NCBI GenBank assembly: GCA_903850335.1
Contig: CAINLJ010000265.1
Coordinates: 1-41,448, forward strand
DNA: 41,448 nt
Reading direction: 5' to 3'
Source: an uncultured Bacteroidia bacterium
GTDB taxonomy: Bacteria > Bacteroidota > Bacteroidia > Bacteroidales > Prolixibacteraceae
The position numbers and the translations under genes are program-made. Within the stretch, counting starts at the first letter, position 1. Each line of letters opens with the position of its first letter. The notes under the pieces are model-generated. The model worked only from the letters and a program-made list of their open reading frames with translations, was not told where the DNA came from and searched no databases. Positions 9,387 to 41,434 of the stretch are shown piece by piece.

Positions 9387-11405
9387 TTAATGGTTCTCCA
9401 AAAACGGCAACCAGACTTTCATCTGACCTTGCTCCCTGTTGCACCAAGCGTAATAAGGAATGGCAGTAATATCAATTCCTGCTTTTTTTTCGGGTAATGA
9501 AGCCTCTCCTTTAATGCTCACAACTCCGCCCAAGAAATCACCCCGGTATTCCGCTTTAAATCCGGAATGGAGCAGATATCCCTTGCTGTAATCACTAAAA
9601 TAACTCTTATTATCAGTTTCTTCCAAACAATAGACCATTGGACCGCGCATGATGACCACCTTCCCAATTGCGTCAGCAATCCTTGGATTTCCTTCAACCA
9701 GCCTGACATTCATGGGCAATTCCAATTCCAACCGATCACCGTTCTTCCACCTCCTGTCAATAACTGCATAACCCCTTTCCATATGAATTTTATGGATTCT
9801 TTCTCCGTTTATCTTTAGGTTTATCCCTTCACGGAGGTTTTCATCTTTAAGATATTCATAGAGGCCGCCAGGTAGCAATTCACCCTGCGCCCAGCCTGGT
9901 ATCCGTATACGTAAAGCAAGATACACAGGGTTTTCGGGATCAACCTTCAGATTGATCTTTCCGTCCCATGGATAATCCGTTTCCAGCTTAAGGGAGATTT
10001 CCTGGCCTCCTACGGTGATTTTTCCTGTATTTCCGATAAACTGATTGATATAAATCCCTCTATCACTTTTCCCATATATTGTTGATCCAATTTCAGGTAA
10101 AAACCTGACCATATTAGTGGGACAACAGGGTGGGTCATCCCAAGCCTGGCGTTTATTCTTTCCGGTTGACTCAAGAGGATTGGTATAAAAGAATCTGTCT
10201 CCGCTTAAGGAAACGCCAGCTAATGCAGCATTATACATGGTAAGCTCAAGCAAGTCAGCATACTTTGCATCTCCTGTCAACAAGTTCATCCTTCTGTTCC
10301 AGAAAGTAAACCCGATACCGGAGCAGGTTTCACAATAAGCCCGGTCATTGGGAAGCAGGTAGTCCGAGCCAAATCCCTCATCGTGAAACTGTCGGGTTCC
10401 GATTCCTCCCGTGATATAGAGTTTTTTCAGGACAATATTATTCCAGATGGAATCCAGTGCAGGCAAATATTTGGATTCCCCTTTCTCCAGTGAAACATCG
10501 GTCACTGCCGAATACAAATATGCAGCACAAACGGCATGGCCTACCGCATAGTACTGCTGCGTGACAGGAAGATGATCCTGCATGTAGGAAGGTGGTCGCC
10601 AGCGTTGTGGAGTATTCGCGTATGGATCCTGATCAAGCGGGGTAATTTTTTCTACTGTCATCCGCTTCGGATTCCCCCTTTCGTCAATAAAAAAAACTGT
10701 TAAATCCAGGTATCTTTTCTCTCCTGTTATTCTGTACAATTTGTAAAGTGCTAGTTCAATTTCTTCATGTCCTGTAGCATCCTGACGTTTCCCCGGACCA
10801 AATTCAGCATCAATACAATCAGCAAAGCGGATGGCAGCATCCAGGAATTTTCTTTTCCCGGTAACTTCGAAATAGGCGGCTGCTGCTTCAATCAGATGCC
10901 CGGCGCAATACAATTCGTGGCTTTTTCTAAGGTCAATCCATCTTTTTGAGCTATCTGTTTTTGGTATATAGGTAATCAGGTATCCATCGGGTTGTTGTGC
11001 AGCAACTATCCGGTCAATTACAGAATCAATTGTTGCTTCCAGCTCTTTATCCGGAGTATGGTGCAATGCATAAGCAGCTCCCTGGATTATTTTATAGACA
11101 TCCGAATCACTGGCAAGTCTGCCATGATGCTTAACTTGTTTTTTACCTGCTGCAATATCAAAGTCCTCTATAGATTCGGAAGCCTCTTTCAGAGCATGCC
11201 TGATTCCGGTTAACCGGTTTATCTCAATCCTGGGACGCCAGAAATTATCAGTAATTGTTACATTTAGGAACGAGAAACTTTCGACCATCGGGCCCGGCGA
11301 TTCGCCCTTTGCGCTGGCTGTTTTTCCCTCCGACCCGAATTCAGGATCAGCAAAGGATACCGACATTAAACATCCCAATATTACCATCAGCGGTTGTATT
11401 CTCAT
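9387..11405 (-). CDS. GH127 beta-L-arabinofuranosidase (DUF1680 / HypBA1 family)
   Basis: 672 residues from the ATG at 11405; a longer reading would need a TTG start at 11417. A signal peptide (MRIQPLMVILGCLMSVSFA) fits the chosen start. An (alpha/alpha)6 barrel follows, with SHELYCAGHLIEAAAAYFEVTGK, then C-terminal beta-sandwiches. The characterised enzyme HypBA1 of Bifidobacterium longum uses a zinc held by Glu338, Cys340, Cys417 and Cys418, with Cys417 as nucleophile and Glu322 as acid/base. Here Glu359 and Cys361 (YCETCSG), Cys427 and Cys428 (PPCCPTN) and Glu343 (HDEGFGSD) match. The 16-residue spacing between the two glutamates is identical. An active retaining cysteine glycosidase is therefore likely. 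Known members cleave Araf-beta-1,2-Araf and Araf-beta-Hyp, but other DUF1680 branches take other sugars. It sits between sulfatase and GH78 with short gaps. Confidence 0.92.
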   Translation of the reverse strand: MRIQPLMVILGCLMSVSFADPEFGSEGKTASAKGESPGPMVESFSFLNVTITDNFWRPRIEINRLTGIRHALKEASESIEDFDIAAGKKQVKHHGRLASDSDVYKIIQGAAYALHHTPDKELEATIDSVIDRIVAAQQPDGYLITYIPKTDSSKRWIDLRKSHELYCAGHLIEAAAAYFEVTGKRKFLDAAIRFADCIDAEFGPGKRQDATGHEEIELALYKLYRITGEKRYLDLTVFFIDERGNPKRMTVEKITPLDQDPYANTPQRWRPPSYMQDHLPVTQQYYAVGHAVCAAYLYSAVTDVSLEKGESKYLPALDSIWNNIVLKKLYITGGIGTRQFHDEGFGSDYLLPNDRAYCETCSGIGFTFWNRRMNLLTGDAKYADLLELTMYNAALAGVSLSGDRFFYTNPLESTGKNKRQAWDDPPCCPTNMVRFLPEIGSTIYGKSDRGIYINQFIGNTGKITVGGQEISLKLETDYPWDGKINLKVDPENPVYLALRIRIPGWAQGELLPGGLYEYLKDENLREGINLKINGERIHKIHMERGYAVIDRRWKNGDRLELELPMNVRLVEGNPRIADAIGKVVIMRGPMVYCLEETDNKSYFSDYSKGYLLHSGFKAEYRGDFLGGVVSIKGEASLPEKKAGIDITAIPYYAWCNREQGQMKVWLPFLENH

Positions 11406-11445
11406 GACTAATTCCAATCTGGTGAGTGTTCTAAATAAATAGAAT

Positions 11446-12852
11446 TTATTCTGGCTGAATCAGTTGATAGTCTGCATCATAAAATCCCAGATGACGTATT
11501 CTCCAATCAGCAGGTTCAAGAAAAACAGAATGAGGAAGATGAACTTCCCAAGTGCCCAGCTTTTTTAACATTGCTTTGGTTCGCACAAGGTTCTGAAGTG
11601 CCACATCATTTTGCTCGGCTATATCATCGGAAAGATGATATAGCAAAGGAAGCCTGTCAGGCAATCGTATTAGTTTCCAATCACCCTCCCTGATTGCAGT
11701 ACCTACCGTATAGCGCCATTCCAACGTTTGATGGGGAATTTTGTCGGTCTGGTCAGTCAGAAAGGGAATAATATTGACACCCGTATAATTGTCTTTTTCT
11801 GAAGCAGATCCACCGGCAGCCAAGATGAAGGTAGGACAGATATCAAGTGATGAAACAGGTTCATTAATTTTTTTCCCGGCAGTCAGTTTTGCAGGCCATT
11901 TCATAATAAAGGGGACTCGTATTCCACCTTCCAGCACAGTTGTTTTTTGTCCTCTCAGTGGAGCATTTACAGATCCATTCGAGATAGAGTTAGCTGGTCC
12001 TCCATTATCACTGATAAAGACCACAAGTGTATTGCTCTCAAGGCCTTCCTCATTCACCGTCTTTATAATTTTGCCGACATTTTGATCAAGCCGGTACACC
12101 ATGGCACAATAAGTACGCCTCAATTTATCTTTAATGTTGGTGAATAAACTTAAGTCTTCTTCCGTTGCCTGCATTGGAGAGTGAGGAGCATTAAAAGAAG
12201 CCATTAAAAAGAAGGGATCGCTTTTGTGTCTTCTGATAAAACTGACACATTCATTGCCAATATTATCTGTTATATAATTAAGAGGCCCAGGAGTTTTATA
12301 GGTACAGTCAATTGGACCTTCCATACCTTCCCCGTCAGGTTTTGCAGTAAAATAATCATGTGCACCGCCCAAAAATCCCCAAAACTCATCGAATCCTCTT
12401 TTTAAGGGATGAAAATGAGGTTTCTCGCCCAGGTGCCATTTGCCTATCAGGCCATTCACATAACCCAGACTCCTAAGTTTATCAGCAATAGTTGTTTCAG
12501 TCAGAGGAAGTCCAACATAATTCGGATCAAATCCGGCCTGTGCAGGAGATAAGTTGTCGTTAAAACCAAAACTTGCCTGATGTTTCCCGGTAATGAGACC
12601 GGCACGCGATGGACTGCAAACTGACGAAGAAACATAACCATTTGAAAAAATAATTCCCTCCGTCGCCAACCTATCAATATTAGGAGTCGGAATTTGTTTG
12701 CTGCCATGGACACCTAAATCCGCGTATCCGAGATCATCTGCAACAATCAATATCAGATTTGGTTTTTCAGAGCCACTTTCCCCAAATACCTGTGTTGTGC
12801 AAATGATCAATGATATATACAATATTGAACAAATATTTGCAGATGATTTCAC
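11446..12852 (-). CDS. S1-family sulfatase, secreted
   Basis: 468 residues. It opens NLILIVADDLGYADLGVHG (metal-binding Asp-Asp) and carries CSPSR in SSVCSPSRAGLITGKH. This is the C-x-P-S-R sequence in which Cys79 is turned into formylglycine. Further family marks are GKWHLGEKPHFHPLKRGFDEFWGF and FISDNGGP. The only convenient start is GTG at 12852, followed directly by a signal peptide (ICSILYISLIICTTQVFG), so I accept it. The enzyme should remove sulfate esters from a sugar in the periplasm or outside. The substrate subfamily cannot be read by eye. No formylglycine-generating maturase is in the window, so it must come from elsewhere in the genome. It lies 41 bp before GH127 and about 190 bp after the propeller gene. 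A short hairpin (CTCATGG/CCATGAG, 12894-12919) stands in that gap. Confidence 0.93.
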   Translation of the reverse strand: MKSSANICSILYISLIICTTQVFGESGSEKPNLILIVADDLGYADLGVHGSKQIPTPNIDRLATEGIIFSNGYVSSSVCSPSRAGLITGKHQASFGFNDNLSPAQAGFDPNYVGLPLTETTIADKLRSLGYVNGLIGKWHLGEKPHFHPLKRGFDEFWGFLGGAHDYFTAKPDGEGMEGPIDCTYKTPGPLNYITDNIGNECVSFIRRHKSDPFFLMASFNAPHSPMQATEEDLSLFTNIKDKLRRTYCAMVYRLDQNVGKIIKTVNEEGLESNTLVVFISDNGGPANSISNGSVNAPLRGQKTTVLEGGIRVPFIMKWPAKLTAGKKINEPVSSLDICPTFILAAGGSASEKDNYTGVNIIPFLTDQTDKIPHQTLEWRYTVGTAIREGDWKLIRLPDRLPLLYHLSDDIAEQNDVALQNLVRTKAMLKKLGTWEVHLPHSVFLEPADWRIRHLGFYDADYQLIQPE

Positions 12853-13042: not shown

Positions 13043-14338
13043 CTATTTCTCCCCGTCTTTCAAAAGTTGTATTTTCTGAAAACATATCCCATAGTGGCTT
13101 CCGGGAGGATTCTTCGACCACCCTTTACCAACGGGATCCAAAGAAAAATTTGCAGAGTAAAGCAACCACATCTGCTTTCCATCATTGCTGATAAACTTTG
13201 TGGGGATATTGACAAAATATGCCTGTACTCCAAAGTCCTTCATATAACTGACGATTTTCCAATCACCATCAATTTGATCAGACTCAAGGATATAGGTATT
13301 CATTTTTGAAACTGTATTTCCCCCATCGGTAACACACATTAAATATTTTTTCAGAGGGGCATTGTAGGTAATGTTTACACAACCCATATTGTTATTCCAT
13401 TCCAACAATGGCTTTATTTTTTTAAAATCATTGATCCACAATGGTTTGCCATTACCATCTTTTCCAGCGTAAAATTCATATTTGGAGGCATTGTTGATAT
13501 TTTCCTCCGACGGGGTAACTCTTAAAAGATAAATCTGATCACCTGTAACCCAGCTATCGTTCCAGAATCTCCATTTCGTATCGGTTACATCTGCACCGTG
13601 AGCCACCAGGTAGGCCTTGCCATCAGGTGAATGCTCCATGTTTTTGCCGAAATCAACGAAATGGGGAGAACCTATCTTAACCGGACTCCCATACAGGCCA
13701 TTTTCACCAAATAGTGGTTTCTCAGGTGTATGAGGGCAAACTTGCCAGGTGTGTCCGTAGTTTTTTGAAGTCCTGAAACCAACAAAAGGTCCGATCCATG
13801 GCCAGTTAACCTTAATATCCCCGTATTTAGCATTGTTGTCAGGACCAAGACAATAGGTGCCATAATACCAGACGCCGTTATATACAAGAGATCCACAGGG
13901 ATAGCGCCCATTATACGGAAACGCCGGTGAGCTTTTATCGAGCCCGATGCTGTATGCTTTTATGTCGAGCGGATCATTCCCAACAATAACTCCCTGTCCG
14001 GTTGTGATATGGACAGGATCAACCCATGATTGTGACCAATCGGTGTAACCATCCAGTCTTTTTGTTTTGCCGTCGGTCCAGGGAGAGTACAACGTATCAT
14101 TTGATGCCCAGGTCGGATACCATGTATCTCCATAGTGATAGCCACTTTTTATGCCCAGGAATTTTATGCCATTTAATTCTTTTGATTGTTCAAACGGACA
14201 ATCACCCGGCAGTTCTGATGGCCATACAAAGGGCTCGAATCTGATAATTTCAGGTTGTAAATCAGGCAATTGTGATTTCGCAGTTACTTCTGAAAAAATT
14301 ATAACGGCTAAAACGATTAAGTAACGATAAATTTTCAT
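13043..14338 (-). CDS. Secreted probable beta-propeller protein (DUF4185-like), function unknown
   Basis: 431 residues with a signal peptide (MKIYRYLIVLAVIIFSEVTA). The body is rich in Trp, Tyr and Gly and repeats propeller-like strands: YHYGDTWYPTWASNDTLYSPW, PCGSLVYNGVWYYGTYCLG, GFRTSKNYGHTWQVCP, HSPDGKAYLVAHG, and WNNNMGCVNITYNAPLKKYLM. This resembles five-bladed propellers of DUF4185 or GH43/GH-like uncharacterised families. I recognise the pattern of such proteins in PULs but cannot name a reaction. It is the first gene after the SusC/SusD pair and starts the run of secreted enzymes. A glycoside hydrolase or a lyase role is possible but unproven. The gene is intact with an ATG start. Confidence 0.75.
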   Translation of the reverse strand: MKIYRYLIVLAVIIFSEVTAKSQLPDLQPEIIRFEPFVWPSELPGDCPFEQSKELNGIKFLGIKSGYHYGDTWYPTWASNDTLYSPWTDGKTKRLDGYTDWSQSWVDPVHITTGQGVIVGNDPLDIKAYSIGLDKSSPAFPYNGRYPCGSLVYNGVWYYGTYCLGPDNNAKYGDIKVNWPWIGPFVGFRTSKNYGHTWQVCPHTPEKPLFGENGLYGSPVKIGSPHFVDFGKNMEHSPDGKAYLVAHGADVTDTKWRFWNDSWVTGDQIYLLRVTPSEENINNASKYEFYAGKDGNGKPLWINDFKKIKPLLEWNNNMGCVNITYNAPLKKYLMCVTDGGNTVSKMNTYILESDQIDGDWKIVSYMKDFGVQAYFVNIPTKFISNDGKQMWLLYSANFSLDPVGKGWSKNPPGSHYGICFQKIQLLKDGEK

Positions 14339-14722: not shown

Positions 14723-16459
14723 TTACCAGCCCGGATTCTGCGTCAGATTTTTATTTAGTGTTAATTCATTAGATGGAACTGCTAATAGATAATCTCTTCC
14801 CGGTTTAAATCCCCATCCTCCATTAGGTCCCGTTAAAACTCCCTTATATAGATCAATATATCCATTTGCGTCAGTATTCAAAGAAGGACTTTGCAATTTT
14901 ATCTCGTTTGTGTAAAAGGTGCCAAGTGGCCTTTTGCCCACAAAAAGCTTGTGCGCAGCCCAACGCATCAGGTCATCAAGACGGAATCCTTCAGAAAACA
15001 GTTCCACATTACGCTCTCTTCTGATCTCATAAAGATAGTCAGGGAGTGAGTATCCATAATCAGGCCAATCAGGATCGGAAGTAATTGAACTCAAAACCAT
15101 CGACGGCATTCCAACCCTTTGCCTGAGTTTATTGATAGTTAAATCCGCATCTGCCTGTGTTAACTGTCCGGATTCAGCTTTAGCCTCAGCATATATTAAT
15201 AAAGCTTCGGCATAACGAAAAATAATAAACCCAACACTTTGACTATAAGTACCTGTGACAGGGTCAAATTGTGGACGGCGAAATTTTTGAAATTCATAAC
15301 CGGTTGGTTCACCAAAAACCGAGATTTGGGGCAATGTGAAGAAAGTTGTATCATTCTTCAAATCAACTGTTACAACATCACGAGGGGTCATTATACTCTG
15401 GACACACCTCGGATCACGATTAACAGTTACCTGCCTGAGATCAAGATCTCCCTGATAAAGCGGACTGGCCGAAATGGGTAAACCGTCAGAACAAAGGTAA
15501 GAACGAATCATCTCGCGGGTAATACCACTATTGTTTGGCCAATTATACAATTGATTTCCGAAAATACCTCCATAATTTTGTCCATAAGTATTGAAATCAA
15601 ATTGTTTCCATAACAATACTTCTGAATTTTTACTATAATCGATCTGGTTAAAAAGATTATAATAAACATTACTTTTATTTCCTTGTACAAGTGAATAATC
15701 TCCGGCATCCATTACAACTTTAGCAGCAGTAGCAGCTTTTTGCAAAAAAACAGTTCCATCGGTCTCTCCTGCAAATGGATCTCCCTTATGATACTTTTCC
15801 CAGGTGCCTTCATACAAACATACCCTTGCTTTAAACTGCGAGGCAACGTCCGTATTCAACCGGGACGCCGGAACTGCAGAAGGCTTTCCCATTTTTGTAA
15901 TTGCTGAATCAAGGTCACTGATTATGAAATTAACAACCTGAGTTCTGGTACTGCGACTACCATATAAAATATCGACGTCACTAACATTTACTGGTTTGGT
16001 AATTATAGGCAGGTTTCCAAATTTGGTGAGCAATTGATAATAAAACCATGCCCTGAAAAAATAACCTTCCCCGATATACTGACCAACCAGGTTGCCTGGT
16101 GCAACATTTTTTGCATTTGCTAGAAAATAGTTGACATTGCGAACATTTGTCCAATCCCATCCTCCTCCGCTGGAAGGAACAGTTAAAACTCCATTCAAAC
16201 GATCTTTTGTAGATAACCAAAGATTGCCAGGTATCGAAACATCAGTTCCGTTATCTTTCATATTAGCGCCGCCAGACCCTAAAGCTTCCCAACCGGGAAA
16301 CGTACTGTAAAAAGTATTGAGGTATAATTGAAGGTCATTCGCTGTTTTCCAAAATGCGGGTTCAGAGATCTGATCCAACGGTTTTTTGTCGAGCAGATCC
16401 TTGCATGAACTAGAAATTATCACAATGGATAAGAAAATTATGTAATATATCTTTTTCAT
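14723..16459 (-). CDS. SusD/RagB-family outer-membrane glycan-binding lipoprotein
   Basis: 578 residues. The lipobox Ser-Ser-Ser-Cys19 (MKKIYYIIFLSIVIISSSCK) is followed by DLLDKKPLDQISEPAFWKTANDL, the usual SusD opening. Family marks later are YIGEGYFFRAWFYYQLLTKFGNLPIITKP, the TPR-type helix AEALLIYAEAKAESG, NKLRQRVGMP, IRRERNVELFSEGFRLDDLMRWA and the terminal NPGW. SusD proteins sit as a lid on their SusC channel and catch oligosaccharides at the cell surface. The gene begins 12 bp after susC ends, so the two are translated from one mRNA. The oligosaccharide bound cannot be read directly. The downstream enzymes point to a rhamnose- and arabinofuranose-containing glycan. Confidence 0.97.
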   Translation of the reverse strand: MKKIYYIIFLSIVIISSSCKDLLDKKPLDQISEPAFWKTANDLQLYLNTFYSTFPGWEALGSGGANMKDNGTDVSIPGNLWLSTKDRLNGVLTVPSSGGGWDWTNVRNVNYFLANAKNVAPGNLVGQYIGEGYFFRAWFYYQLLTKFGNLPIITKPVNVSDVDILYGSRSTRTQVVNFIISDLDSAITKMGKPSAVPASRLNTDVASQFKARVCLYEGTWEKYHKGDPFAGETDGTVFLQKAATAAKVVMDAGDYSLVQGNKSNVYYNLFNQIDYSKNSEVLLWKQFDFNTYGQNYGGIFGNQLYNWPNNSGITREMIRSYLCSDGLPISASPLYQGDLDLRQVTVNRDPRCVQSIMTPRDVVTVDLKNDTTFFTLPQISVFGEPTGYEFQKFRRPQFDPVTGTYSQSVGFIIFRYAEALLIYAEAKAESGQLTQADADLTINKLRQRVGMPSMVLSSITSDPDWPDYGYSLPDYLYEIRRERNVELFSEGFRLDDLMRWAAHKLFVGKRPLGTFYTNEIKLQSPSLNTDANGYIDLYKGVLTGPNGGWGFKPGRDYLLAVPSNELTLNKNLTQNPGW

Positions 16460-21756: not shown

Positions 21757-21774
21757 ATCGGCACTTTTTCTAAA

Positions 21775-21782
21775 CAAATTTA
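21775..21782 (-). promoter_or_regulatory. Bacteroidetes -7 box before the ECF sigma gene
   Basis: On the minus strand the bases read TAAATTTG, a full match to the Bacteroidetes TAnnTTTG box, 18 bp before the ATG at 21756. The expected TTTG about 19 bases upstream is only partly present (ATTT at 21802-21805), so the call is moderate. The leader would be very short. Confidence 0.4.
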
Positions 21783-22188: not shown

Positions 22189-22220
22189 TTTGCAAGCTTT
22201 GCACAAATGACCTAAATTTG
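22189..22220 (+). promoter_or_regulatory. Bacteroidetes-type promoter of the M1 peptidase gene
   Basis: TTTG at 22189-22192 and TAAATTTG at 22213-22220 are separated by 20 bases, close to the TTTG-N19-TAnnTTTG consensus of the primary sigma factor. Transcription would begin near 22227, leaving a leader of about 25 bases before the ATG at 22251. This is the clearest promoter in the window. Confidence 0.55.
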
Positions 22221-22250
22221 TTCCATACATTATACGGTAATGAACGACCT

Positions 22251-33168: not shown

Positions 33169-34191
33169 TTACAGATCAATCATTACTTTCATACTCTGGT
33201 CTCCTTGATTATCAATATATTGGTAAGCGTCGAGGTATTGGCTAAACGGAAAACTGCCGGTGAGAAGGGGTTCTGTTATAATTTTACCAGATGCAATCAT
33301 TTCAACTGCCGCCTCATAATCCTCTTGACGGTACATCATAGAACCAAAAACATTCAGTTCGTGTTCCCCTAAATAGAACATATTAACCACAGGGTTTTGC
33401 GAATAAACTCCAAGAATGATCACTTGTCCTCCTTTTTCAACAAACTGCATGAGCACATCGAGTGATGACTGGACACCAGCAGCTTCAAAACCTACCTGAA
33501 AACCTTCATCGCCGAAGAAAGATTGGATTCCTTCTTCAAAAGAGAGGTTTTTAACATTCAAAGTTCCTTTAATACCACATTCGTTGGCAATGTTTAATCG
33601 GTAATCACTGATGTCGGTAATGAGAACTTTTGCTGCTCCTCTGGCTAAAGCAAACTGCGCAACCAGGTTTCCGATGGTTCCTGCACCTGAAACGACGACA
33701 TTTTTACCTTTCAGACCAGTGGCCCGGTTTGTGGAATGAGCTCCCACAGCCGCTGGTTCAATCATCGCACCTTGTTCAAGAGACATGCTTTCCGGAAATG
33801 GAACAATCCTGTCTTCAGGTACAACAAACAGATCCTGGGCAACCCCCGGTGCCTGAAAACCCTGCACTTTCAATTTTTGGCAGGCATTATACTGACCTCT
33901 TTTACAGGGTCCACATTCACCACAAACCAATTGTGGTCTGGCAGTCGCTTTCATACCAGGCTTGACTTTCGTAACGTTTTTGCCAATAGCCTCCACGATT
34001 GCAGAATATTCGTGTCCTTGTATAACAGGATAGGGGGTTGCCGGATGCTTGCCATGAAACACATGGATATCAGATCCGCAAACACCAATTTTTCTAATTC
34101 TCAATAAGATCTCATTATCTTTTAACTGTTCCGGTTCCGGTATATCATGGTGCTCAATTACACCGGGAGAAATCATAATTGCCTGCCTCAT
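33169..34191 (-). CDS. Zinc-dependent medium-chain alcohol dehydrogenase
   Basis: 340 residues. The catalytic zinc site is seen in GVCGSDIHVFHG and GHEYSAIVEAIG. The structural zinc loop is VCGECGPCKRGQYNACQ (four cysteines). The NAD fold is VVSGAGTIGNLVAQFALARG with the acidic end ITDISD. It resembles sorbitol, threonine, or L-gulonate/galactonate-type sugar-acid dehydrogenases. The exact substrate cannot be read. A sugar alcohol or sugar acid is likely in view of the sugar-type symporter before it. It follows the symporter by 69 bp and is probably co-transcribed. Confidence 0.93.
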   Translation of the reverse strand: MRQAIMISPGVIEHHDIPEPEQLKDNEILLRIRKIGVCGSDIHVFHGKHPATPYPVIQGHEYSAIVEAIGKNVTKVKPGMKATARPQLVCGECGPCKRGQYNACQKLKVQGFQAPGVAQDLFVVPEDRIVPFPESMSLEQGAMIEPAAVGAHSTNRATGLKGKNVVVSGAGTIGNLVAQFALARGAAKVLITDISDYRLNIANECGIKGTLNVKNLSFEEGIQSFFGDEGFQVGFEAAGVQSSLDVLMQFVEKGGQVIILGVYSQNPVVNMFYLGEHELNVFGSMMYRQEDYEAAVEMIASGKIITEPLLTGSFPFSQYLDAYQYIDNQGDQSMKVMIDL

Positions 34192-34260: not shown

Positions 34261-35910
34261 CTAAGCAAACAATGCATACAGAATTATCATCGTTACCAAA
34301 AGCAATCCGGCAAGTAATCTTGCATCGCCCAACCCTTTAAATTTACCCTCGGTAATTACAGCAAGGGGGCTTTCCCAGGTACATTCGGCAATTGCTGTCG
34401 GATCGGGCTTTGGAGTAAGATAGCTAACTGAATAATAAATGACGCAACAGATACAGAATAGCCACCATGCCTGCATCATAAAGGGAATTCCAAGACCTTC
34501 GGTGATGTACATATAGCCGCTGACCGGAACAAAGTCGAGGCAAAACGAAATTACTCCAAGTAAAAACCCAACACTAAGCGTTATAATTGAGGCTTCTTTT
34601 GTCCCCCGCTTACTGAATACCCCCAATAAAAATACGGTGGTGATAGGCGGGGCCATGGCAGCCGCTATTTTATTGATTGCTTCAAAAATACTGGTAAATT
34701 TTCCCCCCTGGGTTGACCATAACATGGCAATAATCATAATGACTACAGCAGCGATACGACCGATCATCACCTGTCCTTTATCGGTTGTGGAGGGCCTTAA
34801 TCTTTTTACAATATCAACTGATACCAGGGTGGCTGAACTATTCAGTGCTGCTGCAAGCACACTCATTAATGCTGCAAGCAATGCAGCGGCAACGATACCT
34901 TTTAAACCTACGGGCAACAATTCTTTGATCAAAACAGGAAAAGTCTGGTTAGCATCTGTTCCGATAATGTCTTTAAATAATACATAAGCAATGACGCCGG
35001 GAAGAACTAAAACAAATACAGGAAGTATTTTCAATACACCGGCAAATAAGGAGCCTTTCTGGGCATCATCCACCGAACGGGCACTTAATACGCGCTGAAC
35101 ATGAGTCTGGTCAGTACACCAATACCAGATACCCATCACCGGATAACCTAAAAGGACCGCATACCAGGTTAATCCTGTACTTGAGGCGGTCTGGCTCAGC
35201 GTTTTTAACGAACTTGTCGTATGAAGCATACTCAGTTGGCCCTCTTTGGCAGCAGCTTTAAATGCCGCATAGGTCGTAATTCCATGTTCCGGGAGGGCAA
35301 GGATGCCAAAAACAGTAACCAGAATGGCTCCGGCAATCAGGATGATCGTTTGTACCGACTCGGTGACCATGACCGCCTTTAGTCCGCCAATAACTGTGTA
35401 AACGGTTGTTACAATGGATATGAATATGATTGAATGAATAACACTAATACCAAAGAATGATTCAAATACCACTGCTCCGGCGTAAAGACTCATCCCCATA
35501 TGAATGAACAAAGCAGCGAGAATTCCCATAAAAGCAAGGAATGTACGGGAATCTGGCCCATATCGTTTCTCAAGGAATTCAGGCAACGTGGCAATTTTGG
35601 TTTTAAGATAAAACGGCGCAAAAATCAATCCAAGAAGTATCAGGGTAAAAACGGCCATCCATTCAAAATTACCCCACACCAGACCATCGTTATATCCCGA
35701 TGCAGCCAGGCCAACCATGTGAATCGTGGAGATATTCGATGCAAAGAGTGCGGCTCCCACGATCAGCCATTTCAAGCCACGTCCTGCCAAAAAATAATTG
35801 TCGCTTGTCATTTTACTTTTCCTGACCGACCACAATCCGATAAAAAGAATGCCGATAATGTATACAATAATAATGACCAGATCGATGTTGTCAATTTTGA
35901 TGTTTGTCAT
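34261..35910 (-). CDS. Sodium/solute symporter family (SSS/SGLT-like) transporter
   Basis: 549 residues with about fourteen hydrophobic segments. The N-terminus IDLVIIIVYIIGILFIGLW is followed by the family signature NYFLAGRGLKWLIVGAALFASNIST. Later come YTVIGGLKAVMVTESVQTIILI, GYPVMGIWYWCTDQTHVQRVLSA and AALMSVLAAALNSSATLVSVDI, a stretch containing the paired serines of the second sodium half-site. The WYWCTDQTHVQRVLSA stretch is typical of the sugar-type branch (vSGLT-like), so a sugar import role is likely; proline-type symporters differ there. It would move its substrate across the inner membrane. It lies 18 bp past the left inverted end of the small mobile element. Confidence 0.92.
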   Translation of the reverse strand: MTNIKIDNIDLVIIIVYIIGILFIGLWSVRKSKMTSDNYFLAGRGLKWLIVGAALFASNISTIHMVGLAASGYNDGLVWGNFEWMAVFTLILLGLIFAPFYLKTKIATLPEFLEKRYGPDSRTFLAFMGILAALFIHMGMSLYAGAVVFESFFGISVIHSIIFISIVTTVYTVIGGLKAVMVTESVQTIILIAGAILVTVFGILALPEHGITTYAAFKAAAKEGQLSMLHTTSSLKTLSQTASSTGLTWYAVLLGYPVMGIWYWCTDQTHVQRVLSARSVDDAQKGSLFAGVLKILPVFVLVLPGVIAYVLFKDIIGTDANQTFPVLIKELLPVGLKGIVAAALLAALMSVLAAALNSSATLVSVDIVKRLRPSTTDKGQVMIGRIAAVVIMIIAMLWSTQGGKFTSIFEAINKIAAAMAPPITTVFLLGVFSKRGTKEASIITLSVGFLLGVISFCLDFVPVSGYMYITEGLGIPFMMQAWWLFCICCVIYYSVSYLTPKPDPTAIAECTWESPLAVITEGKFKGLGDARLLAGLLLVTMIILYALFA

Positions 35911-36129: not shown

Positions 36130-36147
36130 TTTTTTCTTTTTATTTTT

Positions 36148-36166
36148 AACCAGTAACCAGTAACTA
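36148..36166 (-). repeat. Right inverted end of the S23 element
   Basis: The complement reads TAGTTACTGGTTACTGGTT, differing from the left end only at position 9 (G for T). Its first three bases are the stop codon of the rbsD-like gene on the minus strand. Confidence 0.75.
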
Positions 36167-36580
36167 TTTTTCGCTATACCATCGGTTACCTGCCCCTGAA
36201 ACGAGGATCACATTGCCATAAGCTGTGAAATCACCTGTACGAATGATTGCTTTGACGTTTTTACTCATCTCTTTCATAATTGAATGGTCAACAGTCTCGA
36301 CCAGAACACCATTTCCAAATGACCGGGAAATATTTTCAAACAAAGAGGGACTCGTTTTCAGGGTTTGATTGGCCAACACCATTTTTTCAACTGAGAAATT
36401 CTTTCTCAGCATAGCAAGCACTTCAAGTACCATTGGTTTATTTTCTTCCAGAGAGAGGTCAATAACCTCTACTCCAAGGGGAATTGCAAATCCGGCATCA
36501 GTTACCATCAAAAGGTCTCCATGACCTTGTTTCGAAATGGCAGTAGCTATTTCTCTGTTTATTACTCCGGTTTCTGTCAT
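36164..36580 (-). CDS. RbsD/FucU-family sugar mutarotase
   Basis: 138 residues, the family's normal length. The conserved His lies in SKQGHGDLLMVTDAGFAIP, and the C-terminal site reads KAIIRTGDFTAYGNVILVSG. RbsD interconverts pyranose and furanose forms of ribose, and FucU the anomers of fucose; which sugar is used here cannot be told. It stands between an amino-acid-type reductase and a sugar-type symporter. The stop codon TAG (36164-36166) belongs to the inverted end of the small mobile element, so the last codons may have been changed by the insertion, although the reading frame still ends close to the expected place. Confidence 0.9.
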   Translation of the reverse strand: MTETGVINREIATAISKQGHGDLLMVTDAGFAIPLGVEVIDLSLEENKPMVLEVLAMLRKNFSVEKMVLANQTLKTSPSLFENISRSFGNGVLVETVDHSIMKEMSKNVKAIIRTGDFTAYGNVILVSGAGNRWYSEK

Positions 36581-36616: not shown

Positions 36617-37546
36617 CTAGTATGCCTCATAAACCAGTTTTGCGGCAAACAAATCGAAAATAGCACTTCCAACTGTTTTAAATAATCTTGTTGGATTTTC
36701 AGAGGGAACAATATCTCCAAGTAGTAAAGTGCCTATATGATAAATTTTGTCTTCAGATATCCAGTTATTTTTTACTGGTGTGATTAAATCTCCACTCTCT
36801 TTTTTCCCATCGAGTGCATCAACGAATATCTGATCAAGCTGTCTGAAGAACTGTTCAGGGAATTCCCTGCAATCGGGTTTATAAGATCCTATTGCAAAGA
36901 ATGATTTGCCTGTAAAAAGCTCTTTTGAATCGGAGAAAACCGGATAATGAGAGTTAGTGGCCGAAATTATGATTTCCGAATTGATAACGACTTCATTCGA
37001 TTCACGAGCCTGATATATTTTAATTTTTGGATATTTACAATTAAAAAGCTTTGCGAAAAGGCTAAGATTATCTTTATTCAGATCGTAAGCCCAGATCTCA
37101 TGGATTTCGCGTACTTCGCATGCAAATAAAGCCTGGTATATCCCCTGTGTACCTGTTCCAATTATCCCAAGGGAATGACTACTTACCGGTGCAAGATTTT
37201 TAATTCCTGCTGCGGTGATTGCCGCGGTACGCATTGCAGTTATAGCACTACCGTCCATTAGAGCCAGTGGTTCGCCGGTTTTGGTATCATTTAAAACTAC
37301 GGTCCCATAGATAGACGGACGGCCCAATTTCTGATTTCCAGGACAAAATGACACAAGTTTTGTCACCCAGTATTCATCAGTTATGCAGGGCATTAACAGA
37401 AAAGTATCCTCACCATAATCTAAATGCATTCTCTTTGGCATAACGCACTTGCCTGATGCACTAGTTTTCATCGCAATTTCCATCGCCTCCACCCACCGCG
37501 ACATCGTTGCAATTTCTTCTACTTCTTTGTTGTCAAAAAATTTCAT
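36617..37546 (-). CDS. Ornithine cyclodeaminase / mu-crystallin family protein
   Basis: 309 residues. The dimer and substrate segment reads LALMDGSAITAMRTAAITAAG. The NAD(P) fold reads SLGIIGTGTQGIYQALFA with EIWAYDLNKDNL. The family includes ornithine cyclodeaminase, pyrroline-2-carboxylate reductase, ketimine reductase and others. In hydroxyproline gene clusters, members reduce pyrroline-2-carboxylate to proline, and that would suit this neighbourhood, but I see no residue that decides it. It follows the serine dehydratase gene by 34 bp and precedes rbsD by 36 bp, so it belongs to the same transcription unit. Confidence 0.9.
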   Translation of the reverse strand: MKFFDNKEVEEIATMSRWVEAMEIAMKTSASGKCVMPKRMHLDYGEDTFLLMPCITDEYWVTKLVSFCPGNQKLGRPSIYGTVVLNDTKTGEPLALMDGSAITAMRTAAITAAGIKNLAPVSSHSLGIIGTGTQGIYQALFACEVREIHEIWAYDLNKDNLSLFAKLFNCKYPKIKIYQARESNEVVINSEIIISATNSHYPVFSDSKELFTGKSFFAIGSYKPDCREFPEQFFRQLDQIFVDALDGKKESGDLITPVKNNWISEDKIYHIGTLLLGDIVPSENPTRLFKTVGSAIFDLFAAKLVYEAY

Positions 37547-37580: not shown

Positions 37581-39152
37581 CTAATGACACATTTTTAATT
37601 TCTCATGTAGTTTTAAGGCTGTAGGGGTCCTGGCTAATCCGCCACATCCTGTACAGCATAACGAAGAAGGCAATGAATCTCCGACAGATTTCATGGCATC
37701 TATCACCTCATCGAGGGGAATAAGCGGATCAAAGCCTGAAAGTCTCATATTAGATGAACTCAGTGCATTCATAGCTCCGAGAATATTTTTCCCGAGACAC
37801 GGAGCCTCAACGCGGTCGGCTACCGGATCACAAACTAATCCAAGGAGATTCTGAAGGGCCATTGATGCGGCATCAACTGCCTCTCTGGCAGTTCCTCCCA
37901 TAAATTGGACCAATCCGGCGGCCGCCATAGCGGAGCCTGCACCGCACTCGACCTGGCATCCACCCTCCTCGGCGGCAAAAGTGTATTTGTCGGCAATAAA
38001 TACACCTATCAAACCCGCAGCCAGAAATGCTCTTGTTATGAGTTCAATATCATCGGTAAATCCTTCAGCAATTCCAAAAATTGCACCTCCAAGCAGACCC
38101 GCCGAACCGGCTGTCGGGGCTGCGACAATAATCCCCATCGAACTTTTGGTTTCCATAAGTGCTGACACATATGCAATGATTGTATTGACCGGATTTTTAA
38201 ATATTCTTTCCTTCCTTTCCGCTTCCAATATCAGGTGAGATTGATGCCCAAGAATCCTGTCGCTGTAAATTGTACCAGCCAACCCTTCATGAATGGCATT
38301 TTTAGTGAGTAGGACGATATCACGCATCAGTGAAATCACTTTCTGAGAATTAATTCCGGCTCTTGTGCTTTCATACATGATAGCCAATTCAGCCAAATCA
38401 CAACCATTCTGATCGGCCAACATTATCATCTCACTGATCGAGGAAAAAGGAAGTTCTTCTTTAACACCTGAAAGAATAGGCAATACCGGATTAGTCTGCC
38501 GGATCCAGGTTAAATTTTGGGGATCACCTGTTAAATGATTAACCTGCTCCAATAAAGATTCTCTTGATTTGATATTTATCAGAAAGTTTGACTCTCCCTG
38601 CGTGCAGAGTTCGATTTCGGAATGGCTGATTTCACTCTTTAACTGCAACAGATGCTTTTGAATTTCCTCCAATGATATGGAATTATAACAGATCAGGGTT
38701 TCAAAATAATCCCCCCTGAGTGAAACTTCAAATTCGTTAATCCTGTTCAATTCGAACATTCCACCCCCGGTTGATATGGCGATGAACCGGAATTGTTCCT
38801 GTTTAGCATTCTCAACCTGGATTTTATAGGTATTTGGATGGGAAGCCTTAAAGTCGGTGATCACAAATTGTATATTCAGTCCGCTTTCTTTTGCCAGTTC
38901 CCTATATCTGACAACAGCAGGATCGAGAATGCTCACTCCGAGCAAACCACAAATCAAACCCATTGCAGAACCCTGTCCTTCATAGGTTGTTGCCAGCGAT
39001 CCTTTCCTGTCAAATTCAACCAATACCTTGCCATTTTCGGGCGGGCAGATATCCCTGATAAGCGCTCCGATACGATGTGATGCAGCAGTATGAGAGCTTG
39101 ATGGCCCTCTCATCACCGGACCGATCACATCATTAAATATACTTGGTTTCAT
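37581..39152 (-). CDS. Iron-sulfur L-serine dehydratase, fused beta-alpha form
   Basis: 523 residues. The beta part starts IGPVMRGPSSSHTAASHRIG, the typical SdaB-like opening with the serine-binding SSSHT. The alpha part shows MGIIVAAPTAGSAGLLGGAI. The cysteines expected to hold the [4Fe-4S] cluster lie in GGCQVECGAGSAMAAAG, LGLVCDPVADRVEAPCLGKN and the C-terminal CCTGCGG. The enzyme turns L-serine into pyruvate and ammonia in the cytoplasm and is sensitive to oxygen, which suits an anaerobic or low-oxygen host. It follows the DPP-IV gene by 32 bp. Confidence 0.93.
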   Translation of the reverse strand: MKPSIFNDVIGPVMRGPSSSHTAASHRIGALIRDICPPENGKVLVEFDRKGSLATTYEGQGSAMGLICGLLGVSILDPAVVRYRELAKESGLNIQFVITDFKASHPNTYKIQVENAKQEQFRFIAISTGGGMFELNRINEFEVSLRGDYFETLICYNSISLEEIQKHLLQLKSEISHSEIELCTQGESNFLINIKSRESLLEQVNHLTGDPQNLTWIRQTNPVLPILSGVKEELPFSSISEMIMLADQNGCDLAELAIMYESTRAGINSQKVISLMRDIVLLTKNAIHEGLAGTIYSDRILGHQSHLILEAERKERIFKNPVNTIIAYVSALMETKSSMGIIVAAPTAGSAGLLGGAIFGIAEGFTDDIELITRAFLAAGLIGVFIADKYTFAAEEGGCQVECGAGSAMAAAGLVQFMGGTAREAVDAASMALQNLLGLVCDPVADRVEAPCLGKNILGAMNALSSSNMRLSGFDPLIPLDEVIDAMKSVGDSLPSSLCCTGCGGLARTPTALKLHEKLKMCH

Positions 39153-39184: not shown

Positions 39185-41434
39185 TTATCTGCCACCTGGT
39201 GGTAAGTTTGATTTCCAGAATTTTTCCATGGTTTCCCTGAGGTGAAGGGAGGTATTTGCCCGCTCATTGATGCTATGCGAACGCATCGGATAGGACATCA
39301 TACTGAACATTTTATTGTTTTTAATCAGTTCGTTGGTAAGCATTTCAAAACTCTGATAGTGGACATTGTCATCGCCGGTTCCATGGATGATCATCAGATT
39401 ACCCCTGAGGTTTTTTGCGAAATTAATCGGTGAACCGTCGCGGTAACCATCCCTATTTTCGTCTAATAAACCCATATATCGCTCCTGATATATATTATCA
39501 TATAGTCGCTGGTCTGAAACGAATGAAACAGCCAGACCAGTATTGTAAATATCAGGATAACGGAAAAGACAGTTCAAAGTCATCTGGCCGCCACCACTCC
39601 ATCCCCAGATTCCGACTCTTGCCGGATCAATGAAGCTGAACATTGAGGCGATTTTACGAGCGGCATTAGACTGATCGGCTGAGGCAAGTATTCCGATCTG
39701 CCGGTAAATACACTTTCGAAATTCAGCTCCCCTGGGCACTTTTGTTCCCCTGTTATCCACACTTATCACAATATAACCCTGCTGGGCCATATACTGATGC
39801 CAGAGATCACCACCACCCCAGGAATCCTGAACCGTTGAACTGGCAGGTTCACCGTAAACATAATATATAACAGGGTATTTCTTCGATGCGTCAAACCCGG
39901 CAGGTTTTATCATCCAGGCATCAAGTATTACCCCGCCAATATCCACTTTGAAAAACTCTTTGGGGTTTAATCCGAGCTGATCGTATTTTTGTTTAACTAC
40001 TGCATTATCTTCAAAAAGCCTTAACTCCTTATGGGCAGGGAGACTTACAAGGGAAATTCTTGAGGGGGTCACGGCATTATTGAAAGTATGAATCGCCCAC
40101 CTGGCATCACCGGAGATCTGATAAGAATTGTGCCCAGTCAAAGAGGCAGGGGTCACACGCTCAGCAGCTCCTTTTCCATCGATGCGGCTTCTGTAGAGGT
40201 AGCGCTGGGTGAAATTATCGGGTGAGGCAATATAATAAACATATCCTCCTTTACCATCAATACAATTTATACTTTCGATATCAAAGTTTTCTTTTGTTAT
40301 TGCATTAACTTTTTTACCATCTCTGGAAACCAGGTATAAACGGAGCCAGCCATCTTTTTCGCTGGTCCATGTAAAATACTTCTCCTGATCGAGCCATTGA
40401 GTATTATCATGAATATCAAGAAATGTTTTATCTGTATCGGTCAGGATATTGGTAAGAGACATATCAGCTGTGTTGCCAATCCATACCATGTTTGTATTTT
40501 GACGGCGGTTGAGTTGCTGTATCATAACGTCTTCCGAATTTGGAATAAAATTCATCCGTGCCAGATAGTGATTACCCGGATCACCAGGGATATCGAACCA
40601 TTTGGTTTCACCACCTTCTGCCGGGATAACCCCAATTTTAACTGCAGAGTTGGTCGTTCCCACTTTAGGGTACGGGAACGGAATGATCCTGGGATAAACA
40701 GAATCAACATTATTGATCATATAGAAAGTTCCAATCCCTTTAGTATCAGATTGCCAGTAAGCAATTTTTTTGCCGTCAGGGCTCCATCTGAATCCGTCCC
40801 TGCAATCGAGCTCCTCCTCATAAACCCAGTCAAACGTACCATTAACAATGTTCCCTCCTCCATCTGAGGTGATCTGAGTAACCTTAGCTGTGGTTAAATC
40901 CTCGACAAAAATATTAAGTTGGCTCACAAAGGCAACGCGCGTTCCATCGGGAGAGAATTTGGCAAACATCATCGTGGCTGGTGATACCGATTTACCAAGT
41001 TGTCTCAGTTTACTTGATTGAAGATCAAGCAACCAATAGTCACCCCTGGTTTTATATCTCCATACTTTTCGCGTATTTGTAAAAATCAGCAGTTTACTAT
41101 TATCAGGTGACCATACATAAGCAGATACATCAAGAGGTTGAGTTTGTCCCTCTGGCACAAACGATTTCGCCGGGCAAACGACTGTTCGGTTTCCAGTTGC
41201 TGCATCATACTTTACAATATCTTTTCCATTTAACTCATGGTTGGGTTCAAATGTGAGGTAGCCTTTATAATCCTTGCTCCATTGAATCGGTCCAAAGTCA
41301 TTTTCATGGTATTTACTATTCTTGAAAATATCCTCCAATGTCAGTAAATTAAGGTTCTTTTGTGCAGAGGCAGTAAAACCTATTCCTAAAGTAAGAAACA
41401 AAAGGGTATAAATTATTGACAATTCGGATCTCAT
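39185..41434 (-). CDS. Dipeptidyl peptidase IV (S9B family), secreted
   Basis: 749 residues with a signal peptide (MRSELSIIYTLLFLTLGIGF ending ASAQ). The eight-bladed propeller covers roughly residues 40-500, with YEEELDCRDGFRWSPDGKKI including the Glu-Glu that binds the free N-terminus in DPP-IV. The hydrolase domain has the serine at 613 (GWSGGGQM), the acid in GTGDDNVHYQ (688-689) and His720 in MRSHSIN. It releases X-Pro and X-Ala dipeptides from peptide N-termini, in the periplasm or at the surface. It is the first gene of the long minus-strand run in view; only 14 bases lie upstream, so its promoter is outside. Confidence 0.95.
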   Translation of the reverse strand: MRSELSIIYTLLFLTLGIGFTASAQKNLNLLTLEDIFKNSKYHENDFGPIQWSKDYKGYLTFEPNHELNGKDIVKYDAATGNRTVVCPAKSFVPEGQTQPLDVSAYVWSPDNSKLLIFTNTRKVWRYKTRGDYWLLDLQSSKLRQLGKSVSPATMMFAKFSPDGTRVAFVSQLNIFVEDLTTAKVTQITSDGGGNIVNGTFDWVYEEELDCRDGFRWSPDGKKIAYWQSDTKGIGTFYMINNVDSVYPRIIPFPYPKVGTTNSAVKIGVIPAEGGETKWFDIPGDPGNHYLARMNFIPNSEDVMIQQLNRRQNTNMVWIGNTADMSLTNILTDTDKTFLDIHDNTQWLDQEKYFTWTSEKDGWLRLYLVSRDGKKVNAITKENFDIESINCIDGKGGYVYYIASPDNFTQRYLYRSRIDGKGAAERVTPASLTGHNSYQISGDARWAIHTFNNAVTPSRISLVSLPAHKELRLFEDNAVVKQKYDQLGLNPKEFFKVDIGGVILDAWMIKPAGFDASKKYPVIYYVYGEPASSTVQDSWGGGDLWHQYMAQQGYIVISVDNRGTKVPRGAEFRKCIYRQIGILASADQSNAARKIASMFSFIDPARVGIWGWSGGGQMTLNCLFRYPDIYNTGLAVSFVSDQRLYDNIYQERYMGLLDENRDGYRDGSPINFAKNLRGNLMIIHGTGDDNVHYQSFEMLTNELIKNNKMFSMMSYPMRSHSINERANTSLHLRETMEKFWKSNLPPGGR

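Follow-up and report, generated by a model that had tools for sequence, protein, structure and literature searches.

A hydroxyproline catabolic cassette linked to GH127/GH146-type genes in Bacteroidota, and a Prolixibacteraceae locus that appears to be a row of modules

Introduction

Does a locus that combines a SusCD pair, rhamnosidases and hydroxyproline catabolism serve to use plant glycoproteins, sugars and backbone together? The question is raised by the window, the 41,448 nt of DNA analyzed here (contig CAINLJ010000265.1, positions 1-41,448, forward strand), which belongs to the 5.55 Mb genome of an uncultured Bacteroidia (Prolixibacteraceae, GCA_903850335.1). A first-pass annotation had listed a GH127, two kinds of rhamnosidase, a hydroxyproline cassette, an M1 peptidase, a DPP-IV and a serine dehydratase, and this gene content is borne out by profile matches and motifs.

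Genes of the window

The glycan half is a polysaccharide utilisation locus, with a SusCD pair, glycosidases and a regulator:

3..938, minus: second GH106, truncated by the contig end (PF17132)
1011..4148, minus: GH106 alpha-L-rhamnosidase (PF17132, 651 bits; PDB 6q2f)
4145..6280, minus: GH2 beta-glycosidase (PF02836)
6395..9373, minus: GH78 alpha-L-rhamnosidase (PF17389)
9387..11417, minus: divergent GH127 with an intact Zn/Cys3-Glu site and Cys in place of Arg273 (PF07944, PF20736, PF20737; residue census)
11446..12852, minus: S1_19-like sulfatase with CxPxR formylglycine motif (PF00884; PDB 6prm, 375 bits; CSPSR at 79)
13043..14338, minus: protein without Pfam match (33% relative one gene from another GH127 of the same genome)
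14723..16459, minus: SusD (PF07980)
16472..19981, minus: SusC (PF07715, PF13715, STN domain)
20104..21108, minus: FecR anti-sigma factor (PF04773)
21175..21777, minus: ECF sigma factor (TIGR02985, 155 bits, cut-off 126)

Both kinds of alpha-L-rhamnosidase are present as claimed, but the GH78 and the two GH106 genes all precede position 9387, where the annotation had begun the locus. The best PDB matches of the sulfatase are carrageenan sulfatases. This gene had escaped the first reading, as had the GH28, the symporter/dehydrogenase/mutarotase module, the broken URO-D gene and the ornithine-cyclodeaminase-family gene listed below, and the Arg to Cys change in the GH127.

Beyond an M1 peptidase on the opposite strand lies the cassette with its flanking genes:

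22218..23978, plus: M1 metallopeptidase, between the two halves (PF01433; HExxH...E at 355)
24886..25974, minus: GH28, possibly co-transcribed with the oxidase (PF00295; PDB exopolygalacturonases, about 100 bits)
26019..27260, minus: FAD oxidoreductase, probable cis-4-hydroxy-D-proline oxidase, DAO (PF01266; gene order)
27317..28321, minus: 4-hydroxyproline 2-epimerase, HypE (NCBIfam PRK13971, 558 bits, cut-off 376; Cys90 and Cys253)
28326..29915, minus: aldehyde dehydrogenase (ALDH), probable alpha-ketoglutarate semialdehyde dehydrogenase (PF00171; PDB 1eyy and 3v4c, at least 430 bits; GQFC at 298)
29926..30840, minus: DHDPS-family protein, probable pyrroline-4-hydroxy-2-carboxylate deaminase (PF00701; gene order)
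31008..31807, minus: URO-D family gene broken into two frames (PF01208 in the 3' fragment; the 5' fragment matches an intact homologue at 72%)

The trans-4-hydroxyproline catabolic set is complete, as had been proposed: the epimerase, with two Cys at the expected motifs, is adjacent to the oxidase, deaminase and semialdehyde dehydrogenase. Only HypE exceeds a curated NCBIfam cut-off; the roles of the other three are assigned by family and gene order. The GH28 gene follows the DAO gene at a distance of 45 bp.

The window ends with a third group:

31897..33072, minus: Fe-dependent alcohol dehydrogenase, lactaldehyde-reductase-like (PF00465; best equivalogs below cut-offs)
33169..34191, minus: Zn-dependent dehydrogenase (PF08240, PF00107)
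34261..35910, minus: sodium:solute symporter (SSS), probably for sugar (PF00474; TIGR00813 over cut-off; PRK10484, 310 bits, below cut-off 401)
36164..36580, minus: RbsD/FucU sugar mutarotase (PF05025)
36617..37546, minus: ornithine cyclodeaminase (OCD) family, possible imino-acid reductase (PF02423)
37581..39152, minus: L-serine dehydratase (PF03313, PF03315)
39185..41434, minus: dipeptidyl peptidase IV, DPP-IV (PF00930, PF00326; GWSGGG at 611)

The genome has two full DPP-IV genes, one of them in the window, and a weak third match. Same-genus genome G085, which has no HypE match, carries the OCD-SSS-Zn-ADH-Fe-ADH run at 69-89% identity, and relatives of the OCD gene (38-40%) stand beside HypE paralogs in two genomes (G099, G124). 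The OCD, serine dehydratase and DPP-IV would fit a single system just as well, as its amino-acid arm.

A divergent GH127

The GH127 has the PF07944 catalytic domain and the middle and C domains, and its Zn/Cys3-Glu site is all present (DEGF, CETC and CC motifs kept), in agreement with the first-pass annotation. Among the substrate-site residues His142, Tyr145, His194 and Arg273 (HypBA1 numbering; PMC10850190), it retains the first three and has Cys in place of Arg273, which is kept in 28/28 compared enzymes. This loss cautions against taking an intact Zn/Cys site alone as the mark of a hydroxyproline-arabinoside enzyme. The protein is 39-44% identical to most of the beta-Araf-type enzymes compared and 31-33% to two Flammeovirga GH127s, and 140 genomes of the family hold no match above 48% identity. 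It falls short of the aceric acid hydrolase profile (NF049879, 416.7 against a cut-off of 950) and does not match 3,6-anhydro-D-galactosidase (DagA) either: it has neither Asn194 nor Leu273, judged against two Flammeovirga carrageenan-locus GH127s that are themselves DagA by context only, and anhydrogalactose genes were not seen in the window. It lies 17.4 kb from HypE, centre to centre, beyond the 10 kb that we use for linkage below. The genome has 12 GH127-like places, counting fragments, so at most about 0.08 would be expected this near to HypE by chance.

The cassette in the same family

HypE has a match in 28 of 140 family genomes, 22 of them close (at least 65%) and six distant paralogs only; within the genus of the window it occurs in 2/18 genomes. 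In the 11 close loci that we read out of the 22, the four-gene cassette stays together, in the same order in ten, the other (G022) being cut in ALDH by a contig end. Its neighbours differ between genera, and none of the 11 combines the window's GH127, GH78/GH106, SusCD, sulfatase and M1. In two loci (G036, G040) the cassette has SusC, ECF/FecR and several sulfatase genes nearby, and in G036 also a 31% GH78, all at low identity. DPP-IV-type and M24 genes lie near the cassette in G105 and G113, and in G105 a GH146-type gene and two GH127 genes join them within 18 kb of HypE. An AraC-type regulator is divergent beside DHDPS in 9/11 loci; the window has the broken URO-D gene at this position, and same-genus G094 also has no regulator.

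Linkage across Bacteroidota

That the cassette is linked to GH127/GH146-type genes in Bacteroidota is well supported. Of 80 loci, 20 have such a gene within 10 kb of the cassette, where 0.92 would be expected (maximum of 200,000 simulations, 8). An evenly drawn replicate gave linkage in 9 of the 38 genomes having GH127/GH146-type genes, against 0.37 expected (maximum of 1,000,000 simulations, 5), and in 13/38 at 30 kb, a range that would take in the window, against 1.1 expected. Enrichment over genome density is 22-27x in the two samples. No account of this linkage turned up in our literature searches.

GH27, DPP-IV and other peptidases recur at linked loci, and two loci (L027, L148) are co-directional GH127-GH27-DHDPS-KGSADH-HypE-DAO runs with gaps of at most 112 bp. 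Extensin carries beta-Araf on Hyp and alpha-Gal on Ser, a make-up that the recurring GH27 and peptidases match. Neither AraC (near the cassette in 45/80 and 37/72 loci) nor GH27 (10 and 2) is universal, and both are absent from the window. Profiles from cassette neighbours elsewhere match exactly four window genes (GH127, DPP-IV, M1 and SusC), and peptidases of two recurring families lie near its cassette, M1 at about 5 kb and DPP-IV at about 12 kb. Relatives of its serine dehydratase, mutarotase, SSS and Fe-ADH were found in 0/80 cassette flanks elsewhere.

A probable row of modules

From the observed families, residues, gene orders and linkage counts we infer reactions, substrates and co-regulation as follows. 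We consider it probable that the window joins in a row modules that were assembled separately, and that elsewhere the cassette serves extensin-type glycoprotein use. Module one would be an ECF/FecR-controlled SusCD locus (two GH106, GH78, GH2, the divergent GH127 and the S1_19-like sulfatase), most likely targeting a sulfated, rhamnose-containing glycan. Module two would be the self-contained cassette (epimerase, oxidase, deaminase, semialdehyde dehydrogenase), converting trans-4-hydroxyproline to 2-oxoglutarate, and module three would deal with deoxy-sugars and peptides through its SSS symporter, two dehydrogenases, mutarotase, OCD, serine dehydratase and DPP-IV. In other Bacteroidota, arabinose and galactose would be removed and peptidases would cut the chain, after which the cassette would burn the hydroxyproline backbone of extensin-type glycoproteins.

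A bolder version, to which we give an even chance, is that recurrent, repeatedly assembled Bacteroidota loci consume plant hydroxyproline-rich glycoproteins (HRGPs) whole: SusCD would serve uptake, GH127/GH146 would act on Hyp-linked beta-arabinose and GH27 on serine-linked alpha-galactose, DPP-IV/M1/M24/DUF885 would cleave the chain and the cassette would degrade the backbone. In this scheme the window would count as a variant whose GH127 is re-specialised and which has a sulfatase, for sulfated/rhamnosylated wall glycoproteins. Its own membership in the Hyp-linked HRGP class is doubtful, and it is at best a loose member. If the linkage means what it seems, many Bacteroidota use extensin-type glycoproteins for sugar and nitrogen, and two subjects that are mostly pursued separately, glycan loci and amino-acid catabolism, would meet; the linkage would also give a simple genomic marker for extensin use, with GH127, GH146-type and GH27 enzymes that can be assayed directly.

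Other readings

The first-pass annotation had suggested one glycoprotein system, and as a general idea this is supported, the cassette lying near GH127/GH146-type genes elsewhere in Bacteroidota. For the window it is weakly supported and largely fails the check for conserved linkage that the annotation itself had set, as partners of the cassette differ within the family and the set is absent from the 11 loci read. A single extensin/arabinogalactan-protein system, in which rhamnosidases, GH2 and GH127 would remove the sugars, M1 and DPP-IV would cleave the polypeptide, and both hydroxyproline and serine would be catabolised, would fit the gene content, the general linkage, the four profile matches, the presence of one of two full DPP-IV copies and the arrangement in same-family G105. 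We nevertheless find it unlikely: the GH127 is without Arg273, GH27, GH146 and AraC are absent, the oppositely oriented M1 splits the halves, the glycan half comes with an ECF/FecR pair of its own, and it is hard to see what the sulfatase would do on land-plant extensin. GH106, GH78, GH2, GH28 and GH127, all in the window, are families of RG-I/RG-II degradation, and GH127s beside GH78/GH106 elsewhere resemble aceric acid hydrolases (1170-1186 bits in the three of seven that were scanned, cut-off 950). A rhamnogalacturonan-II-type glycan half with the GH127 as aceric acid hydrolase is nonetheless highly improbable, given the low score reported above, His142/Glu322 where seven GH78- or GH106-linked GH127s have Phe/Gln, and a position outside their clade.

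Alternatively, the glycan half may be directed at a sulfated galactan or rhamnan from red algae or another marine source, its GH127 being an exo-glycosidase functionally akin to 3,6-anhydro-D-galactosidase. The adjoining sulfatase, with its carrageenan-sulfatase matches, points this way; the available text on Zobellia describes GH127 and S1_19 in one carrageenan cluster and, for one Zobellia GH127, relatives in Bacteroides whose loci include GH78 (PMC5698469), and a Flammeovirga carrageenan-type locus has GH127, GH2 and an S1_19-like sulfatase, Arg273 being absent there too. We think it rather unlikely, as the GH127 is closer to most beta-Araf-type enzymes than to the two Flammeovirga proteins, and has His194 where these have Asn, and as genes for anhydrogalactose catabolism did not turn up in the window. 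The linkage itself might come from nothing more than shared ancestry or a general clustering of glycosidase loci: 10/21 linked loci of the first set come from Mucilaginibacter or Pedobacter, and related genomes are not independent. This is quite improbable, since at one genome per genus the replicate keeps about 4.1/22 linked against 0.21 expected, both GH127 and GH146 types are linked with differing insertion points, and the GH78 control is not enriched (0/80 and 1/75, about the density expectation of 0.66 for the 50 genomes where counted, 205 genes).

Comparison with known systems

The Zobellia carrageenan locus shares with the window a GH127 clustered with an S1_19 sulfatase (PMC5698469, available text); the window lacks the anhydrogalactose genes, and its GH127 lacks the residues of the Flammeovirga carrageenan-type GH127s. 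In an HRGP prediction for Latescibacteria, GH127 is proposed to remove extensin arabinose, and the available text makes no link to a hydroxyproline cassette (PMC4454575). The 4HypE pathway clusters in the genome neighbourhood network of the proline racemase superfamily (eLife 2014) also combine epimerase, D-amino-acid oxidase, DHDPS-type deaminase and semialdehyde dehydrogenase, as far as the available text goes (PMC4113996); its main text has no "arabinofuran", "glycosid", "DUF1680" or "dipeptidyl" and mentions peptidases once. The systems for HRGP arabinosides, HypBA1/HypBA2 of Bifidobacterium longum and XeHypBA1/BA2/AA of Xanthomonas, resemble the present loci in their beta-L-arabinofuranosidases on arabinosyl-hydroxyproline; in Xanthomonas, a putative prolyl oligopeptidase gene, described as a pseudogene, adjoins xehypAA (PMC6085000, available text). 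Hydroxyproline catabolism is not mentioned for either system in that text, whereas the Bacteroidota loci add it, some together with SusCD and GH27.

Gene content and layout

The window had been read in a first-pass annotation as possibly one system for the use of plant hydroxyproline-rich glycoproteins. Family and motif searches confirmed the families and motifs on which that reading was built, and the genes are arranged as follows.

21777 down to 3, minus strand: in this order, ECF sigma factor, FecR, SusC, SusD, a 431-aa protein without Pfam match, S1 sulfatase, GH127, GH78, GH2, GH106
last of the 21777-3 run, minus strand: second GH106, cut by the contig end
22218-23978, plus strand: M1 peptidase
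after the M1 gene, minus strand: 129-aa frame, GH28, then the trans-4-hydroxyproline cassette (oxidase DAO, epimerase HypE, semialdehyde dehydrogenase KGSADH, DHDPS-type deaminase) and a broken URO-D gene
after the broken URO-D gene, minus strand: Fe-ADH, Zn-ADH, SSS symporter, RbsD/FucU, OCD, serine dehydratase, DPP-IV

This 41.4-kb contig is one of 284 in a 5.55-Mb genome that is 95.6% complete. Within the window, no RNA family matched at gathering scores and no tRNA genes were found. The best PDB match of the 431-aa protein had an E-value of only 0.19; a relative of 33% identity lies one gene away from a second GH127 of the same genome (L132, G000:C156). The URO-D family gene (31008-31807), between the cassette and the Fe-ADH gene, consists of two frames with the middle missing. 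An intact homologue adjoins a related SSS symporter in L144 (G072).

Linkage of GH127/GH146 genes to the hydroxyproline cassette in Bacteroidota

The linkage of GH127 or GH146 genes to the cassette is well supported in other Bacteroidota, where such loci form a class. Our first sample (set 1) was the best 80 of at least 590 HypE matches to the window epimerase, in named genomes and with up to 10 kb on each side; because of this choice it is biased towards similar cassettes. Clustering placed GH127/GH146-type genes in 20 of the 80 loci against 0.92 expected from per-genome counts (all expected values assume uniform placement and rounded genome sizes), and profile and phmmer searches gave 21, the additional locus being a contig-end fragment (L030). 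In the first 40 genomes of set 1, matches as weak as E 0.001 were counted as genes too, so that the expected value is on the high side. The GH146 label derives from domains (DUF6805, DUF4986), length and tree position rather than from a CAZy search. GH78 has a similar density per genome: the 50 of the 80 genomes in which it was counted carry 205 genes, and 46 of them have at least one. It occurred in none of the 80 flanks, with 0.66 expected for those 50 genomes; it is neither enriched nor measurably depleted. GH106, GH2 and GH28 were also absent from all 80 flanks by phmmer, one 23% blastp match to GH2 being seen.

Set 2 was drawn evenly from the phylum (395 genomes) and searched with profiles made from set 1. 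HypE was present in 76 genomes including that of the window, 75 loci were fetched, and 72 remained once three duplicates of set 1 were dropped. PF07944 genes (87 matches) occurred in 38 of these 72 genomes and in none of the other 34. Within 10 kb of HypE there were 10 such genes in 9 of the 38 genomes, against 0.37 expected, and widening the distance to 30 kb gave 15 genes in 13 genomes, against 1.11; 25 of the 38 were unlinked even at 30 kb. Reduced to a single genome for each genus, the sample has about 4.1 linked genera of 22 at 10 kb, where 0.21 would be expected. The control families were rare in the 75 loci (GH78 and GH28 once each, GH2 and GH106 never). On the tree, leaving 14 unlabelled rows uncounted, the hydroxyproline-linked label changes two or more times, with four changes as the simplest account; each may be a gain or a loss.

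Other families also recur near the cassette, named from a Pfam scan of one representative each or from window matches. Raw counts in the 80 loci of set 1 and the 72 of set 2 were, respectively, 45 and 37 for AraC profile matches, 24 and 12 for DUF885, 24 and 4 for amino-acid permease, 14 and 13 for DPP-IV type, 12 and 9 for M24, 10 and 2 for GH27, and 8 and 2 for M1. GH127/146 or GH27 together with a peptidase-type gene was found in 14 and 4 loci. Two loci (L027, L148) carry GH127-GH27-DHDPS-KGSADH-HypE-DAO in one direction with gaps of at most 112 bp, and L028 (Mucilaginibacter frigoritolerans) reads SusC-SusD-DHDPS-KGSADH-HypE-DAO-AraC-DUF885-permease with a divergent GH146-type gene. HypE and DAO flank GH127 or GH146 in L049 and L063, and L202 has a row of DPP-IV, GH146, DUF885 and GH127. 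DUF5695 proteins lie near the cassette in 7 of the 80 loci of set 1 (e.g., L060 2-2755, L028 16788-19565).

The cassette in the family of the window organism

Of the 140 family genomes, 28 gave a HypE match; 22 of these are close (at least 65% identity), and six have distant paralogs only; within the genus of the window organism, 2 of 18 genomes have HypE. We read 11 of the 22 close loci, those of G094, G022, G010 and G130 being shortened by contig ends. The cassette is complete in ten, and the contig of G022 ends inside it. Its neighbours are common only within genera (G001 with G015, G036 with G040), and the window's partner set is absent from all 11. Conserved linkage of the window halves was rejected in the family (140 genomes, 11 cassette loci read; for the window GH127, among the matches listed, with up to eight candidates scored).

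Some loci nevertheless contain related families. G036 and G040 have SusC, ECF/FecR and several sulfatases within 20 kb of the cassette, and G036 also a GH78 of 31% identity; all of these matches are of low identity. In G105, the opposite flank of the cassette carries M24, GH146-type, DPP-IV-type and two GH127 genes; M24, DPP-IV-type and GH27 genes occur in G113, and M24 with a distant GH127-like gene in G094, of the window's genus. In 9 of the 11 loci the deaminase gene has a divergent AraC-type regulator next to it, G094 being one of those without; the regulator is also absent from the window, where the broken URO-D gene occupies that place.

In G001 (L099 10830-14423), a pyruvate-formate-lyase-like glycyl radical enzyme and a radical SAM activase lie near the cassette, the pattern expected of an anaerobic hydroxyproline dehydratase, which the enzyme possibly is. 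G015 has genes at the same position that resemble these in size and place. HypE paralogs of 36-37% identity adjoin OCD-family genes at G099:C1:200252-202250 and G124:C2:623484-625491, the pattern of a trans-3-hydroxyproline dehydratase with its reductase.

A probable third module

The window's OCD, SSS, Zn-ADH and Fe-ADH genes recur at 69-89% identity in the same-genus genome G085, which has no HypE, accompanied by a rhaM-type mutarotase, GH29 and GH27. SSS, Zn-ADH and Fe-ADH also recur next to SusC/SusD genes in G036, G040 and G130. Near these genes G130 has a DPP-IV 55% identical to that of the window, beside an OCD gene and on a different contig from its cassette; the window DPP-IV may for this reason belong to the third module. 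Relatives of the window serine dehydratase, mutarotase, SSS and Fe-ADH were found in none of the 80 set 1 cassette flanks, and those of OCD and Zn-ADH in two each.

Putative substrate of the class and reading of the window

In extensin, hydroxyproline bears beta-L-arabinofuranose and serine bears alpha-galactose (PMC7933510), and passages on XeHypBA1 assign it to GH146 (PMC10850190) and give Ara-Hyp as its preferred substrate (PMC6085000). On this ground GH127/146, GH27, peptidases and the cassette would together match extensin well, and this is the function that we infer for the hydroxyproline-linked class. GH27 also includes beta-L-arabinopyranosidases (title of PMC4598101). Arabinogalactan proteins or arabinosylated signalling peptides are alternative substrates for the class, and collagen would leave GH127/146 unexplained. 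The titles, abstracts and passages covered, with subscription journals mostly outside the search, contained no link of GH127/146 to hydroxyproline catabolism, and the main text of a 2014 epimerase-family neighbourhood network had no matches for arabinofuranosidase or glycosidase terms (PMC4113996).

The idea behind the first-pass reading holds for loci elsewhere in the phylum, with a putative function, and fares less well for the window itself. As the window scores with the neighbour profiles of GH127, SusC, M1 and DPP-IV, we consider its membership in the class doubtful rather than remote. That it is one system for hydroxyproline-rich glycoproteins is unlikely in our judgement; it is probably a SusCD glycan half, a hydroxyproline cassette and a third deoxy-sugar/peptide module placed end to end.

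The window GH127

By similarity, this enzyme is closest to the beta-L-arabinofuranosidase type (6ex6 512 bits, GsAraN 468, HypBA1 348, 5mqo 270). What 6ex6 and 5mqo are, and how Glu322, Glu338, Cys340, Cys417 and Cys418 are numbered and act in catalysis, is assumed here. One study assigns His142, Tyr145, His194 and Arg273 to the substrate site of HypBA1 (passage in PMC10850190). The window GH127 keeps the first three and has Cys at 273, a position that is Arg in all 28 compared enzymes (10 hydroxyproline-linked, 2 of G105, 13 from the family, 3 references), a set that leaves out the distant L132_4 (Ile273) and L101_7516 (Gly273), the GH146-type rows and the seven rows of aceric type, all with Arg. 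The window GH127 differs at 11 of 108 near-invariant positions; the other rows have 0-12 such differences and HypBA1 has 23, so the overall divergence of the window enzyme is high and not unique, while the loss of Arg273 is unique in the compared set. In a 50-row tree, from which L030 was dropped as too short, it has a long branch and no supported relatives. Among the matches listed for 395 phylum genomes (up to three candidates scored per genome), a near ortholog at E 1e-175 or better was found only in its own genome.

Seven GH127s adjoining GH78 or GH106 in named Bacteroidota genomes (L119-L125) share Phe142 and Gln322 and form one clade. The three scanned pass the cut-off of the aceric acid hydrolase profile (1170-1186; cut-off 950), which suggests that these loci may serve RG-II use. 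An aceric acid hydrolase was ruled out for the window GH127, which scores 417.

A carrageenan-type locus on a plasmid of Flammeovirga kamogawensis (L227 10017-26812) encodes two GH127s in which His194 is replaced by Asn and Arg273 by Leu. It also encodes GH2, sulfatases and anhydrogalactose-type catabolic genes; no carrageenan GH127 was found by profile on the Pseudoalteromonas plasmid (L221, L225, L226). The window GH127 matches none of the three signatures, beta-arabinofuranosidase, aceric or carrageenan-type.

We take 6prm to be of the S1_19 subfamily. In Zobellia, according to a passage of PMC5698469, GH127 and S1_19 share one cluster, and the window has its GH127 beside a sulfatase whose best matches are carrageenan sulfatases.
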